DNA of 64,000 nucleotides from Acetobacter fallax (lineage in GTDB: Bacteria; Pseudomonadota; Alphaproteobacteria; Acetobacterales; Acetobacteraceae): contig NZ_WOSX01000001.1 in NCBI RefSeq assembly GCF_011516735.1, positions 1 through 64,000 of the forward strand. The letters run 5' to 3'. This document shows positions 10,600 through 30,526 of this stretch, in pieces (positions within the stretch are counted from its first letter, which is position 1; every line of letters begins with the position of its first letter). A model generated the notes under the pieces. The model was not told where the DNA came from. It was given only the letters and a program-made list of their open reading frames with translations, and did no database searches. The translations under genes were made by a program, and so were the position numbers.

Positions 10600-10960
10600 T
10601 TGATCTGTGGATGAGGGTATCCGGGCTCTGCCCGGCCTCCCGGCAGGGACCGCAGGCCCCTGCACCCCGGCTTGTTGATAACAAACGATTTGCAAGGGCG
10701 AGCCTTTGCCGGGTTCCAGGGGAGAGCCCTGCCAGTCCTGCCCCTCCCGGTTCTGCCCCTGCCAGTCTCACACACAGGTCAAAGGCCAGTCCTCCGGTAT
10801 TATACCAGCCCGCGTCGCGGCTGACACCACAAGGCCGGGGCTTCACCCCGCACCCCGCCGAAGGTCACCAGCCTGTGGAAAGGCTCTGTTTGCTGATCTG
10901 TGATTTTTCAAAGGACTGGCAGAGTCCGGGCTGTCTTCATGACAGCAATACTATTACGCC
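10600..10960. repeat. Modular palindromic intergenic repeat, composite, partly inverted
   Basis: This occupies the convergent gap between the GNAT gene and the TPR gene. Module B is present in inverted orientation at about 10619-10668 (ccgggctctgcccggcc ... ccctgcaccccgg), followed by a linker ttgttgataacaaac, a diverged module A (caagggcgagcctttgc) and, near 10856, another decayed module A. The order and orientation differ from the copy at 3545, showing that modules shuffle. No gene is supported. Confidence 0.78.
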
Positions 10961-25274: not shown

Positions 25275-25664
25275 TCTTATTATCCGGGTGATTTTGTGAG
25301 CCTGCGCGCGTGCTGGTGCGCCCGACCTCAGATGAGAGTGCTTCAGGGCAGGGATCGTCATTATGCGGAGAAACATGCAGCAGAAACCGGGGTTTCCAGC
25401 TCTGCAAACATTTTCTGGAAGAGTCGGTAATTTTCAGAATGAATACAATTCATCGAATGATGATTTTATCGACACCGAGGGGATGGAACGAGCTGATAAC
25501 CTTCCCGGCACATTTCCAGTATGATGCATTACCCCGAGGCCATATCCGGTAACGAAAATGTTACAGCGGGCGGTCTGTGCATGGTATAATTACTTTTCAT
25601 CGTCTGAATAAATAACAAAAAGAAAATATTATGTAAGACGAAAATACCTTTCGGGAAGAATGCC
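25275..25664. other. Intergenic region; boundary of A+T-richer block
   Basis: No gene is supported in these 390 bases. Base composition shifts towards A+T from about 25400. The last 100 bases hold the likely promoter of the four-gene acylation block and its 75-base untranslated leader. Confidence 0.5.
25582..25590 (+). promoter_or_regulatory. Extended -10 promoter element before the MBOAT operon
   Basis: TGGTATAAT is a perfect extended -10 (TGnTATAAT), 75 bases upstream of the MBOAT start. No good -35 is visible at the usual spacing, which suits an extended -10 promoter. Confidence 0.5.
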
Positions 25665-27224
25665 ATGCTGTTCAATTCTCGGCTGTTTATTCTGTATTTT
25701 CTTCCTCTGGTCTATACGGGTTTCGTAATTCTGACACGATGGAAAAGAAACAGAGAAGCAGTAGCGTGGCTTGGCATTGCGTCGATCGTATTTTATAGCT
25801 GGTGGAATATTTCAACTCTGCCGATTCTTCTTGTGAGTATTGCAGGGAATTTTCTTTTCGGAACATTGCTGTCAAGATTTCCCTCAAAAGCGCTCTTTAT
25901 ATTTGCTATAGGCGTTAATCTCGCAGCGCTTGCATATTACAAATATACAACCTTCTTTATCGAGGCTTTAAACGACACCGCAGGACTTGATTTATACGTC
26001 CCGTCGATCGTTCTGCCTCTGGCAATCTCTTTTTTTACATTCCAGCAAATTGCGTATCTGAGCGATGCTTATGATGGCAGGGCTGTCGAGCATCGGTTTA
26101 CCGATTATCTTCTCTTTATTTCGTTTTTTCCTCATCTGATAGCCGGGCCGATTACGCACCATCGTGAAATGTTGCCGCAGTTCAGCCGGCTGACAAGCGG
26201 AAAAGGTGAACCGGGACGCCTCGCCGTGGGCATGACACTGTTTCTTGCCGGATTAACCAAGAAAGTCATTATCGCGGATCCTGTGGGAACCTACGTTGCT
26301 CCCGTTTTCAATTTTTCACAGGAGGGCGGTATTCCGTCCTTCTCCGACGCATGGGCGGGAACGTTAAGTTACGCAATGCAGATTTATTTCGACTTTTCCG
26401 GTTATACCGACATGGCAATAGGTCTCGGTCTGCTGTTTGGCATCAGCCTGCCACCGAATTTTGACAGTCCCTTCAAGTCACGGAATATCATCGAATTCTG
26501 GTCACGATGGCATATGACGCTGACGCGTTTTCTGACCGCTTATATCTATAATCCCCTCACGCTTCATTTCACGAGGATGCGGATAAAATCAGGTCGCTCC
26601 GTGCCGCGAAAAGGGAAGACCACACCGGGAGCCTTCGTTGTCCTGACGTCCATACCGACGATGTTCACGATGTTTGTTTCCGGGTTATGGCATGGTGCCG
26701 GCTGGCAATTTATTATTTTCGGGGTACTTCACGGATTTTATCTGACCGTAAATCACGGGTGGCATCTTCTGAAGACAAGGCGCGAAAGCTGGCCCGGCAC
26801 CGGGAGTCGCCTCATGGCAGTATTCTCGGTGGCGCTGACCTTTCTGTGTGTTCTCACCGGACTCATCTTTTTCCGGGCTGAAAGCGTTTCGTCAGCCTGG
26901 CGTATTCTCCTCGGCATGGCAGGGCACTCGCCATTTTATCCGGTATCGGCACTCAAACTTCCTGATATCACGGCAACGCAATGCATTTTTCTTGCTGTTC
27001 TGGCGATTATTATATGGAGTTTCCCAAATACCGGTCAGATAATGCGGAATTACCGGACTGCACTGGATCTGACTCCACGTGTGTCCTGGATGATGCGTAT
27101 TTTTCCATCAGTGACATGGCATCCTACTCTGATTTGGGGCGTTGCAACCGGTATCGTCGCCTCTTTCACGCTGATGCGGGCGTTGTCAGCGGCACCCTCA
27201 GAGTTTCTTTATTTCCGATTTTAA
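25665..27224 (+). CDS. MBOAT family O-acyltransferase (AlgI/DltB-like)
   Basis: A 519-residue polytopic membrane-bound O-acyltransferase. Signature regions are FISFFPHLIAGPITHHREMLPQ and YFDFSGYTDMAIGLGLLFGI, PFKSRNIIEFWSRWHMTL, and the catalytic-histidine segment VSGLWHGAGWQFIIFG with H343 (and H356 in VLHG). MBOATs pass an acyl group from a cytoplasmic thioester across the membrane to a glycan. Ribosome site GGGAAG precedes the ATG. It is first of a four-gene block with an FkbH-like loader, an ACP and an SGNH protein. Sequence is visibly more A+T-rich than the flanking genes, suggesting acquisition. Confidence 0.92.
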   Translation: MLFNSRLFILYFLPLVYTGFVILTRWKRNREAVAWLGIASIVFYSWWNISTLPILLVSIAGNFLFGTLLSRFPSKALFIFAIGVNLAALAYYKYTTFFIEALNDTAGLDLYVPSIVLPLAISFFTFQQIAYLSDAYDGRAVEHRFTDYLLFISFFPHLIAGPITHHREMLPQFSRLTSGKGEPGRLAVGMTLFLAGLTKKVIIADPVGTYVAPVFNFSQEGGIPSFSDAWAGTLSYAMQIYFDFSGYTDMAIGLGLLFGISLPPNFDSPFKSRNIIEFWSRWHMTLTRFLTAYIYNPLTLHFTRMRIKSGRSVPRKGKTTPGAFVVLTSIPTMFTMFVSGLWHGAGWQFIIFGVLHGFYLTVNHGWHLLKTRRESWPGTGSRLMAVFSVALTFLCVLTGLIFFRAESVSSAWRILLGMAGHSPFYPVSALKLPDITATQCIFLAVLAIIIWSFPNTGQIMRNYRTALDLTPRVSWMMRIFPSVTWHPTLIWGVATGIVASFTLMRALSAAPSEFLYFRF

Positions 27225-27268
27225 ATACCGGCACCTGATGTCTCAATAATCTGTTTTAGGAAAATGGT

Positions 27269-29227
27269 ATGCTCCGGATGGATTGGCTGCCGCCTCGTCC
27301 TGTCGGTTTTGACAGTTTCGACGAAGCGTTTCATGCAACGCATGACCTGACGAATACGGACGAAATACTGGCTCGTCTTCGTTTGCTGTCCGGATGCCGA
27401 CGCAATTTTCTTCAGACGGGGAAAGCAGACCGGCTGTTAGAAAAAGTTGCACAGAAGACGGACGGCCATCTCGCCAGCGATCTTCGCACGGTCCGGATAG
27501 CTATTCTTGCATCGCATACGGTCGAGCACCTCGTGCCCTCAGTCAGAATTGCCGCGCTGGCAAGAAGTCTCGACGCGCGCATCCACGTTGCGCCTTATGG
27601 TCAGTATCGACAGGCCGTTTACGGTCCGCATGCGGATCTCCTTGCCTTCTCGCCACAATTCATTCTGTTCGCGCTCGATATGCGGGATGCTCCGCTGGAT
27701 CTTCCTCTTTCGGCATCACTGGCTGACGTGGATGAGGCCGTGCTCCGTCGCACGGACGAATTGCGTGCGTTATGGCGTCACGCGATGGCCACTTTCGGCG
27801 CCACGATCATTCAGCAGACGTTCCTGAATGTCGATCCGCCGGTTTTCGGGGCCTTCGAGCAACTGGTTCCCGCATCGCGTGCTTCAGTGCTTCTGCGCCT
27901 TCATCTGAGCCTGGCACAGGCTGCCAGGGAAGAAGGCGTTCTCCTTCTTGATATGGATGAATGCACAACTCTGGCGGGAGGATTGCCAGAGTTGCACGAC
28001 GCCATACGATGGCATCAGGCAAAACAGTTTGTGTCGCCGCATGCCGCCATAATCTGGGGCGATGTCCTTGCACGCATCATCGCGGCGGCATGCGGATTGT
28101 CCCGTAAATGTCTGATTGTCGATCTCGACAATACCCTCTGGGGAGGCACCGCCGGCGATGACGGCCCGGAATATCTCAGACTTGGCCCCGGAACGCCGGA
28201 TGGAGAAGCGTTCTACGTTTTTCAGGAGCATATTTCCCGCCTGATGCAGCGTGGAATTGCAGTGGCCGTCTGTAGTAAAAATGACATCAATATCGCGGAA
28301 GCGGCCTTTAACCAGCCTTCCATGAAGATTCAGCGCCGCGACATCGCGGTATTCGTCGCAAACTGGAACAATAAAGCTGACAATATTCGCGAGATTTCCC
28401 GCACCCTGAGTCTTGGTCTCGATGCTTTTGTTTTTGCAGATGACAACCCGGCAGAACGGGAAATCGTCCGGCGTGAACTTCCGCAGGTCGCTGTGCCCGA
28501 ACTCAGTGACGATCCGTCCGATTATCCCCGGCTCATATCGGCTTCAGGCTGGTTCGAGGCTGCGTCGTTCACCCGGGACGATGCCATACGCGTTCAGAAC
28601 TACAGCGCTGACGTTTCCCGCAGTGCTGCCCGGGAAAACGCTTCCGATCTGGATTCGTATCTGCAGGATCTCAACATGGTGATGTCAGCCCGGCGGCTGG
28701 CGGATTCCGATTTCTCGCGTGTTCTTCAGCTTCTGAACAAGACAAACCAGTTCAATCTCACGGGACGACGCTATACCGGGCCTGAACTCCGCGCGCTCCT
28801 TTCCTGTCCTTCAGCGCAGATCTGGACGTTCCGCCTGGCAGACAGGTTCGGCGATAACGGCCTCGTCAGCGTCGTTATTCTCGTCCCGAACGAGATATCG
28901 CCATCCGTATCCGGGCAGGACCAGAAGCTTCTCCACATTGAAAACTGGATCATGAGTTGCCGTGTCCTCGGACGCGGGCTCGAACATGCGGCACTTGCTG
29001 TTCTGATTCAGGCTATGAAACAGAACAATATTTCAGATGTTACGGCTGATTACCGACAGACATCCAGGAACAGCATGGTTTCCGGGCATTATGCCAGCCT
29101 GGGTTTTTCCCGCACAGACGGCACTGAAGACGGTACGGATACGTCCTGGGCTCTCTGCACTCATGACCCGATACACGACGCCACTCAAAAAGCGTGTATG
29201 AACATAAGGATTGTCACAGATGAATGA
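27269..29227 (+). CDS. FkbH-like HAD-IIIC protein with N-terminal SGNH-like and C-terminal GNAT-like regions
   Basis: A 652-residue protein in three parts. Residues about 60-270 resemble the SGNH-like N-terminal region of long FkbH-type proteins (IAILASHTVEHLVPSVRIAA). Residues about 280-430 are the HAD-IIIC domain with D285-L-D287-N-T289 (LIVDLDNTLWGG), VAVCSKNDINIAE and LDAFVFADDNPAERE. The last 150 residues are GNAT-like (LLNKTNQFNLTGRRY, then a C-terminal RTSRNSMVSGHYASLGF). In polyketide pathways FkbH enzymes take D-1,3-bisphosphoglycerate, remove phosphate and load the glyceryl group on an ACP. The ACP gene overlaps its 3' end, so this is the predicted acyl-loading step of the block. 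TAGGA precedes the ATG. Confidence 0.87.
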   Translation: MLRMDWLPPRPVGFDSFDEAFHATHDLTNTDEILARLRLLSGCRRNFLQTGKADRLLEKVAQKTDGHLASDLRTVRIAILASHTVEHLVPSVRIAALARSLDARIHVAPYGQYRQAVYGPHADLLAFSPQFILFALDMRDAPLDLPLSASLADVDEAVLRRTDELRALWRHAMATFGATIIQQTFLNVDPPVFGAFEQLVPASRASVLLRLHLSLAQAAREEGVLLLDMDECTTLAGGLPELHDAIRWHQAKQFVSPHAAIIWGDVLARIIAAACGLSRKCLIVDLDNTLWGGTAGDDGPEYLRLGPGTPDGEAFYVFQEHISRLMQRGIAVAVCSKNDINIAEAAFNQPSMKIQRRDIAVFVANWNNKADNIREISRTLSLGLDAFVFADDNPAEREIVRRELPQVAVPELSDDPSDYPRLISASGWFEAASFTRDDAIRVQNYSADVSRSAARENASDLDSYLQDLNMVMSARRLADSDFSRVLQLLNKTNQFNLTGRRYTGPELRALLSCPSAQIWTFRLADRFGDNGLVSVVILVPNEISPSVSGQDQKLLHIENWIMSCRVLGRGLEHAALAVLIQAMKQNNISDVTADYRQTSRNSMVSGHYASLGFSRTDGTEDGTDTSWALCTHDPIHDATQKACMNIRIVTDE

Positions 29228-29462
29228 TATCTATCAGAAACTTCAGGACGTTTTCCGTGATGTCTTTGATGATCCGGACATTGTCCTGACACCTGAAACA
29301 ACGGCGTCCGATATCCAGGGCTGGGACAGCCAGGCTCATATCAGCCTTATCGTCGCAGCAGAAGAAAAATTCGGTATCCGTTTCCGAACAGCTGAACTTG
29401 AAAGCCTGCATAACGTTTCTGATTTTGCTGATCTTATCCGGAAAAAATCGACCGCAGGATAA
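29220..29462 (+). CDS. Acyl carrier protein
   Basis: An 80-residue discrete acyl carrier protein. The phosphopantetheine attachment site is S37 in QGWDSQAHISLI, and the rest is the acidic four-helix pattern ending in VSDFADLIRKK. ATG at 29220 with AAGGA nine bases upstream is chosen over the TTG at 29211. It overlaps the FkbH gene by eight bases and its stop shares a base with the next ATG, so stoichiometric, coupled translation is likely. Predicted role: carry the acyl group from the FkbH-like protein to the MBOAT, as DltC does for D-alanine. Confidence 0.9.
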   Translation: MNDIYQKLQDVFRDVFDDPDIVLTPETTASDIQGWDSQAHISLIVAAEEKFGIRFRTAELESLHNVSDFADLIRKKSTAG

Positions 29463-30526
29463 TGTCCTCCATGAAGATATTTCCGACTTCCGAGCACGGT
29501 GATCCGGGTTCAGCTGCGCCCGAAAGCGTTGGTACTTCTGCGGCACTCCGATATTTTATCGGTATTATGGCAGGCGGCTGCCTTGTTCCTCTTCTTTATG
29601 TCTTTTTTCTTCTGCATCTCAACAAAACCGGGAACCTTCCGCCACCAGCATTATCCAACAATATCTGTGTTGATGAAAAACTCAAATTCCTTCGGGATAA
29701 CAGGGATACTCTCTCTCCCACACTCCTGATTACCGGATCATCCGTTGCATGGCGCGGCGTGAACGGCGCTCTCCTTAAAAACATGCTGCCAGAAGAACGT
29801 CCTCTTAACGTTGGTCTGTGCGGCCAGAAAGCCACTCAGACCGCTAACACCACAGAATGGCTCGTCGGGCATTACAAACATGTCAGAACCATTATCATGC
29901 TGGCTGTACCGCAGGATTTCACACAGTGTCGTGGTCAGCCTTCCCGGCTGTTCTCCCCTGCGGACGCTGATGACTATGTTTTCGGAGGGAAAAAGGACAG
30001 CCTTCCGATCGGAACCTATTTCAGATTTTTTGATCCTGTCTCGTTGCAGCATAATGCCCGCCGCGTTGCCGACCAGCGCAGTGACCGTATCCCGCTCGAT
30101 CCTCTCGTCATGACCCCCACGGGAGACGGACCGCTCACAACCAGCATCAGCCGGCCAGATCTCGGCGTTTACGCGCTGCCGCCTTATGACCCCACATGTC
30201 TTTCCGCTTTAAAGACAATGATGGAGTCTGCTGACACGCAGAATCAGCGATTTCTGGTTGTCCTGCTTCCCGTAAAGCACGAGTGGCAGGCGAGATATGA
30301 TCCTGACAATCTGCGGCGGGTTCAGCTCCGTCATGAAATAGAACGCGTCATGACCGGAACTCATGCAAAATTTGCGGACATTAACGATAATATTGAACTT
30401 CCCGAAGTGGCTTTCACAGACGCTGTTCATGTACGCTGGGCCTATGTTTCCATTGTGACGTCTGCAATCGGGCAGTATTTACAGCCGCCTCGTATAGCGC
30501 AATCTGCGACCATTCTTCGAAACTGA
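29462..30526 (+). CDS. Membrane-anchored SGNH-type protein (DltD-like position)
   Basis: A 354-residue protein with one N-terminal transmembrane helix (FIGIMAGGCLVPLLYVFFLL) and a predicted periplasmic SGNH-hydrolase-like domain. The nucleophile motif is G92-S93-S94 in LLITGSSVAWRGVN, as in DltD (GSSE/V), and a C-terminal D320-A-V-H323 supplies the DxxH dyad. DltD and AlgJ/AlgX proteins of this type act with MBOATs outside the membrane to place the acyl group on the glycan. It overlaps the ACP gene by one base. Overall similarity is weak, so the name is by motif and context. Confidence 0.75.
   Translation: MSSMKIFPTSEHGDPGSAAPESVGTSAALRYFIGIMAGGCLVPLLYVFFLLHLNKTGNLPPPALSNNICVDEKLKFLRDNRDTLSPTLLITGSSVAWRGVNGALLKNMLPEERPLNVGLCGQKATQTANTTEWLVGHYKHVRTIIMLAVPQDFTQCRGQPSRLFSPADADDYVFGGKKDSLPIGTYFRFFDPVSLQHNARRVADQRSDRIPLDPLVMTPTGDGPLTTSISRPDLGVYALPPYDPTCLSALKTMMESADTQNQRFLVVLLPVKHEWQARYDPDNLRRVQLRHEIERVMTGTHAKFADINDNIELPEVAFTDAVHVRWAYVSIVTSAIGQYLQPPRIAQSATILRN

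Follow-up and report, generated by a model that had tools for sequence, protein, structure and literature searches.

What do four tightly packed genes of Acetobacter fallax, which encode a membrane-bound O-acyltransferase (MBOAT), an FkbH-like loader, a discrete acyl carrier protein (ACP) and an SGNH protein, accomplish together? They lie in the first 64,000 nucleotides of contig NZ_WOSX01000001.1, the stretch of DNA that was analysed as a whole and is called the window here; the host genome measures 4.2 Mb. The original prediction, made from the letters of the DNA, had read the block as a Dlt-like acylation system with an FkbH homologue in the place of the amino-acid ligase DltA. Its coordinates and gene families are borne out, as are the overlaps of eight bases and one base that it had noted (the gaps between the genes are, in order, 44, -8 and -1 bases) and the residues that it had named (MBOAT H343 in LWHG, FkbH D285xD287, ACP S37, SGNH G92-S-S and D320xxH323). 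The features are as follows.

25665..27224, + strand: MBOAT acyltransferase gene, 519 amino acids
27269..29227, + strand: FkbH-like loader gene, 652 amino acids
29220..29462, + strand: discrete ACP gene, 80 amino acids
29462..30526, + strand: SGNH protein gene, 354 amino acids
25582..25590, + strand: extended -10 element TGGTATAAT, possible operon promoter, from a pattern count in the window

From the gene set, its conservation, its motifs and its predicted folds we infer, with a probability of roughly 55%, a route of catalytic steps that would carry a glyceroyl group from 1,3-bisphosphoglycerate to the ACP, on to Tyr516 of the MBOAT, then to Ser94 of the SGNH protein and finally to a glycan hydroxyl.

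The four genes almost certainly form a functional unit. We searched 299 Acetobacteraceae genomes with the window MBOAT at E ≤ 1e-90, which located 61 places spread over 48 genomes. A search with the window FkbH-like protein at E ≤ 1e-60 matched in 75 genomes. The 60 MBOAT places outside the window, the window itself, locus L071 (genome G003) and locus L074 (A. musti) make up the 63 family loci discussed below. Counts rest on tblastn and profile matches; the simple gene caller misplaces genes in G+C-rich loci, and in L103 and L107, for instance, it called the MBOAT region on the wrong strand. Fifteen genomes from six Acetobacteraceae genera have the order MBOAT-FkbH-ACP-SGNH (the window, L071, L074, L091-L101 and L113, whose MBOAT reads in two frames). 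The original prediction had staked itself on a conserved neighbourhood in relatives, and this recurrence of order and packing rules out that the genes are chance neighbours. The 13 closest FkbH matches in the 299 genomes (E < 1e-180, the window included) each adjoin an MBOAT orthologue. Both proteins are matched in 34 genomes, the MBOAT only in 14, FkbH only in 41 and neither in 210 (odds ratio 12.4, Fisher p 1.6e-13), and after removal of the 16 genomes in which the MBOAT adjoins FkbH the odds ratio is 6.6 (p 2.6e-6), both values being uncorrected for genome relatedness.

The MBOAT matches its Pfam family over the cut-off (3e-23) and is the sole PF03062 protein of the host genome. DltB proteins are its only solved relatives by sequence, and against TIGR04091, the DltB equivalog model, it scores 183.5 bits with a cut-off of 375, which places it as related and under the equivalog level. 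Its C terminus reads FLYFRF (residues 514-519, with the tyrosine at 516) and fits FXYXXF, the acyl-shuttle motif of MBOAT/SGNH systems according to the available part of PMC12148441. An F.Y..F tail is present in 62 of the 64 MBOAT open reading frames across the 63 family loci; the two without it are incomplete, one being an upstream fragment (L113, where the gene is split) and the other (L137) being cut by its contig. Loci from the scan of named genomes described below hold 29 MBOAT open reading frames, two of them cut, and the tail ends 26 of the other 27 (A. musti among the 27), L004 being without it. The Dlt-like gene logic that had been predicted stands with a correction: the system is a hybrid in which the DltX-type shuttle sits on the MBOAT's own C terminus, as in PatA. 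As judged from its sequence, the MBOAT appears to unite in one protein what Dlt splits over two polypeptides, and yet it has a carrier protein. In the proposed route His343 would move the glyceroyl group from the ACP, on the cytoplasmic side, to Tyr516 of the enzyme's own tail.

The Dlt system (DltABCD plus DltX, which D-alanylates teichoic acids) resembles the window operon in its MBOAT, to which that of the operon is related, in its discrete carrier and in having an SGNH protein, DltD, which is the best though loose structural match of the operon's own, and, by analogy with the account in the available part of PMC12148441, in an acyl path from carrier through MBOAT, tyrosine and serine to a polymer. 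Unlike Dlt, the window operon has an FkbH-type enzyme in the place of DltA, belongs to a host of a Gram-negative family, bears the DltX motif as the tail of its MBOAT, and scores under the cut-offs of the DltB, DltC and DltD models. No protein of the 15 operon genomes exceeds the cut-off of the DltA model (TIGR01734, 560 bits); the best score in the host is 50 bits and none falls within the operon. Matches under this cut-off occur in all 15 operon genomes and in 12 of 14 control genomes. As for a separate DltX, the operon holds no fifth gene, small open reading frames elsewhere in the genome not having been searched. We reject a true Dlt operon because the proteins fall short of the model cut-offs and none of the 15 genomes has a DltA that passes its own; by analogy, the system would still work like Dlt.

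The class of PatA/PatB, AlgI/AlgJ/AlgX and WssH/WssI shares with the window operon the catalytic His of the MBOAT, the C-terminal FXYXXF and an SGNH partner with Ser, Asp and His. In contrast to the operon with its ACP and loader, members of this class have no carrier and evidently use acyl-CoA, as far as the available part of PMC12148441 goes. The absence of a carrier that marks the non-Dlt MBOAT/SGNH members is not found here, where the operon includes a dedicated ACP. A second type of MBOAT exists within the family (L133-L135, L139, L142, L145, L147-L149), in which an SGNH gene directly follows or overlaps the MBOAT gene, no ACP is found and the tail is mostly EFVYFQF; these proteins are possibly acyl-CoA users and would offer a natural comparison set.

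The ACP very probably donates the acyl group to the MBOAT. Its Pfam PP-binding match is over the cut-off (1.5e-6), and Ser37 lies in GWDSQ, of which W35, D36 and Ser37 are invariant in a 16-sequence alignment. Its distance from DltC is large: 13.3 bits against the DltC equivalog model NF003464 (cut-off 68) and a match to solved DltC at E 0.00095 only. A profile built from the 16 sequences, 11 of which come from the 63 loci (window apart), so that the count is not blind, finds 37 ACP genes in the family loci, one per locus, and detects none in the other 26 of the 63. Fifteen belong to the four-gene operon, and the remaining 22 lie less than 100 bases from the MBOAT gene or overlap it (L129), always on its strand; FkbH also adjoins the ACP in three of these 22 (L104, L114, L116). 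The ACP is thus a closer companion of the MBOAT than FkbH is, and no other observation speaks as strongly for the ACP being the donor.

This pattern also bears on the idea that the operon serves two separate functions, FkbH and ACP feeding a small-molecule pathway and the other two proteins, MBOAT and SGNH, acetylating a polymer from acetyl-CoA. The FkbH papers that we found concern natural products, by their titles, and the nine loci with an MBOAT followed by an SGNH gene without an ACP belong to the same family, both of which would suit such a division of labor. However, the FkbH and ACP genes sit, tightly packed, between those for MBOAT and SGNH protein in 15 genomes, the ACP keeps with the MBOAT where FkbH is missing, and no polyketide gene was detected among ten flanking genes in the window. 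We regard two separate functions as very improbable. We also reject membership of a polyketide or tetronate cluster, none of the same ten genes being of that kind.

The loader belongs to the FkbH family, scoring 288 bits (7e-86) against the NCBIfam model TIGR01686, which is over the cut-off of 147; its Pfam FkbH_N match (3e-5) is under the cut-off. As a query against the host genome it matches only itself. It comprises an N-terminal domain, a HAD-IIIC domain and a C-terminal GNAT-fold domain. The predicted model, with a predicted local distance difference test (pLDDT) score of 86, has as its best structural match 3SLR, a solved N-terminal part plus phosphatase domain, followed by GNAT acetyltransferases, matches that we assign to the C-terminal part of the predicted model. 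D285, D287, S336, K369, D391, D392 and M562-S-C564-R-V are invariant in 21 homologues. We compared the protein with three Streptomyces FkbH proteins of 341-348 amino acids, which are without its N-terminal domain. Their operons lie near a type I polyketide synthase and encode two dehydrogenases, one for 3-hydroxyacyl-CoA and one for acyl-CoA, along with a phosphopantetheine protein; from this gene content we read them as methoxymalonyl-ACP operons. D285, D287, S336, K369, D391, D392, N493, Q494, S563, C564, R565, V566 and R569 are common to the window protein and all three, which agree with it at 45-47 of the 66 invariant FkbH positions. An FkbH homologue with the catalytic residues of polyketide-operon FkbH proteins is thus what stands in the place of DltA, as had been predicted.

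Methoxymalonyl-ACP genes are described in the available part of PMC7489565, where glyceryl-ACP is proposed as the first product of an FkbH-like enzyme and a standalone ACP as its partner. With these glyceryl transferase/phosphatases of methoxymalonyl-ACP and tetronate pathways the window enzyme shares TIGR01686, the HAD residues, the SCRV motif and an adjacent standalone ACP; it differs from them in its extra N-terminal domain and in having an MBOAT/SGNH partner instead of a polyketide synthase. We propose that the enzyme would take phosphoglyceroyl from glycolytic 1,3-bisphosphoglycerate, that its HAD domain would remove the phosphate, and that its GNAT-fold domain, with Cys564 as candidate acyl carrier, would charge the ACP's pantetheine with D-glyceroyl.

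The acyl group is probably glyceroyl. The same machine and route could instead handle another hydroxyacyl group, phosphoglyceroyl, or a glyceroyl altered on the ACP, which we consider unlikely. Such a change of substrate would fit the N-terminal domain that the operon FkbH proteins carry and the three Streptomyces proteins do not, as well as a VOC (glyoxalase-4) gene, found in 20 of 50 FkbH loci elsewhere (three of them query sources), whose product could act on acyl-ACP. By contrast, the HAD residues and the SCRV motif with Cys564 are common to the Streptomyces enzymes, no gene in the 64-kb window matched any of three VOC queries, and the operon contains no oxidoreductase. Where it occurs, the VOC gene lies just before the MBOAT gene in three loci (L016:11934-12341, L018:11933-12340 and L047:9998-10393) and upstream of FkbH in others. 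Its product could convert D-glyceroyl-ACP into the L form by epimerisation, which would be in keeping with L-glycerate on polysaccharides.

These 50 loci come from a scan of named genomes with FkbH, which covered several phyla by title and included A. musti. An ACP match was found in 41 of the 50 and an MBOAT match in 27, within at most 10 kb on each side and in many loci less; FkbH, ACP and MBOAT genes thus also form clusters of a looser kind, in several phyla. Where the FkbH match aligned from residue 75 or earlier, an MBOAT was present in 26 of 32 loci, as against one of 17 where it aligned from residue 215 onward (Fisher p 3e-7); this comparison excludes L028, which is cut by a contig end and whose match begins at residue 184. 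FkbH with the N-terminal domain therefore goes with MBOATs. In a Sinorhizobium meliloti plasmid (CP050512.1, L153:815-5849) the order is MBOAT, a 409-amino-acid protein, ACP and FkbH, and in pTM1 of Tistrella mobilis an MBOAT, a 340-amino-acid protein, ACP and FkbH are clustered with a methyltransferase, the genes being distributed over both strands. A Niveispirillum plasmid has FkbH and ACP followed by a WcbI-family protein, with no MBOAT annotated in 17.7 kb. The 409-amino-acid S. meliloti protein is annotated as a TonB-dependent receptor; it has no Pfam match and contains DxxH. In S. meliloti 1021 pSymB (L154) an FkbH match that is unannotated in the collection used reads in two frames.

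The SGNH protein would complete the route: the MBOAT tail would present the acyl-tyrosine to it in the periplasm, and Ser94 would take the acyl group and esterify a hydroxyl of the exported glycan. Two overlapping hydrophobic stretches at residues 27-54 are likely one membrane anchor, to judge from the sequence. An alignment of 11 orthologues shows G92-S93-S94, N116, D320 and H323 to be invariant; following the general SGNH pattern, we assume that the nucleophile is Ser94, with which the GxS motif ends. The Pfam DltD match (0.003) is under the cut-off, and the protein scores 17.1 bits against TIGR04092 (DltD, cut-off 150). The 12 best structural matches of its model in the PDB are all DltD chains at E of about 1e-4, six titled DltD and six from entry 3bma, titled D-alanyl-lipoteichoic acid synthetase, which we take to be DltD. 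A best structural match of this kind, loose as it is, agrees with the earlier view of the protein as the counterpart of DltD. Among the loci then collected, an iterative search with the window protein found only itself, A. musti (L002 = L074) and L071. Partners in other phyla were judged by position and the GxS and DxxH motifs only; several candidates are without one or both motifs, and a Pfam scan of seven of them gave one match only (L012, AlgX).

Several results weigh against this route. With a pLDDT of 75 the model of the SGNH protein is only middling, and it matches DltD loosely, at a root-mean-square deviation of 12-13 Å and a TM-score of about 0.4. The choice of Cys564 as a candidate acyl carrier is a guess from its invariance. 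FkbH evidently has other uses too, since the MBOAT search at E ≤ 1e-90 found nothing in 41 of the 75 FkbH-positive family genomes. Nineteen of the 37 ACP-bearing loci combine MBOAT and ACP with no FkbH nearby (L102, L103, L105-L108, L111, L117-L123, L127-L129, L140 and L150); in 13 of these the genome has an FkbH match elsewhere, and in six it has none at E ≤ 1e-60. The MBOAT clade can therefore run on another loader, and we regard the 19 loci as a class of MBOATs that are fed by a carrier, with loaders of another kind or encoded at a distance. Finally, a Pfam scan of flanking genes at eight of the 15 operon copies (4 to 10 genes each) detected no glycan-biosynthesis gene among ten in the window, nor any glycan gene among five each at L074, L092 and L094.

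At the other four copies scanned the flanks do contain glycan-related genes. A nucleotidyl transferase, an epimerase and a C-methyltransferase are among five genes at L071; the four at L091 encode a nucleotidyl transferase, an epimerase, an oxidoreductase DRL and a PMT-like protein; a dTDP-sugar isomerase, an epimerase and a DRL are among four at L101; and of five at L093 only one is glycan-specific, a polysaccharide flippase at a distance of about 4 kb. Near the ACP-MBOAT pairs of L102 and L105 lie a C-methyltransferase gene, or flippase and glycosyltransferase genes. Exopolysaccharides are known to carry glyceryl substituents, for example L-glycerate in gellan (PMC4432689, available part). 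With half of the contexts scanned in support, an exported glycan is quite likely the acceptor.

The SGNH protein might instead acylate a lipid, a protein or peptidoglycan. The four flanks free of glycan genes are what this would lead one to expect, and so is the presence of the block in three neighbourhoods within the genus, as might be the case for a modifier of the core envelope. Against this stand the sugar-nucleotide, C-methyltransferase or flippase genes near the four operons and two pairs just described, and the MBOAT/SGNH pairs in the available part of PMC12148441, which act on envelope polymers. We think an acceptor other than an exported glycan improbable.

If the glyceroyl route to an exported glycan is correct, the operon and the ACP-MBOAT pairs of the family break the no-carrier rule, and envelope acylation can draw on whatever acyl group a carrier can be charged with. 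Glycolytic flux would then be linked to surface chemistry, and there would be a testable gene set for glycerate esters of polysaccharides. Single-residue variants at Cys564 of FkbH, Tyr516 of the MBOAT and Ser94 of the SGNH protein make the route directly testable. More tentatively, and with somewhat less than even odds, we suggest a third, widespread class of MBOAT/SGNH envelope acylation, with a Dlt-like carrier donor, a PatA-like shuttle tyrosine on the MBOAT and exchangeable loaders, among them FkbH, which would channel glycolytic 1,3-bisphosphoglycerate into surface glycans as glyceroyl esters. Such a class could account for the glyceric acid substituents of bacterial polysaccharides.

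Each part of the system is known, and the combination is new as far as the open-access literature shows. In that literature, subscription papers not being covered, no description of an MBOAT-FkbH-ACP-SGNH combination was found. In the available parts of these papers, FkbH occurs with an MBOAT only in cyanobacterial peptide work and with lipopolysaccharide only in work on lipopeptides, and papers pairing it with an acyltransferase are, by title, on natural products or gene clusters. Suomilide-type aeruginosin clusters of cyanobacteria, the sole kind with an FkbH domain and an MBOAT that we found in open-access print (PMC13122637, available part), differ from the operon in that FkbH is there built into a peptide synthetase, as a domain of its loading module, that the MBOAT is proposed to acylate the hexose of the product, and that the part of PMC13122637 available mentions neither a discrete ACP nor an SGNH partner.

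The surroundings of the block vary within the genus, to which the A. musti and G003 copies also belong. In the window a LysR gene lies upstream, with acyl-CoA dehydrogenase, CoA-transferase and transporter genes farther off, and an IclR gene lies downstream, followed by 2-keto-3-deoxygalactonate genes (DGOK, KDPG aldolase and mandelate racemase-like by Pfam scan). The orthologue of the LysR gene is found in A. musti on another contig, without the block, and orthologues of the IclR-dgo genes are found in G027, of the same genus, with other genes upstream. The three different neighbourhoods rule out a fixed genomic site. As had been noted, the block is more A+T-rich than its flanks in the window, with 52% G+C against 61% upstream and 60% downstream, about nine points poorer. 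The A. musti block (59.0% against 59.2% in its surroundings) and the G003 block (62.5% against 59.3%) are not clearly poorer, and the window copy may therefore be a recent arrival.

The extended -10 element that had been predicted ahead of the set is present, TGGTATAAT matching twice in the window against 0.18 expected; the second match lies at 10799-10807 on the minus strand. The promoter scan, whose total site count is at chance level, found no -35/-10 pair at 25582-25590. An acyltransferase-3 gene lies 3 kb from the L092 operon. Just downstream of the same operon (L092:13959-14897) is a gene for a class II aminoacyl-tRNA-synthetase-like protein of 312 amino acids, scanned in L092 only, which may be an amino acid:carrier protein ligase. 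Genes similar to it lie downstream of the operon in L095-L098.

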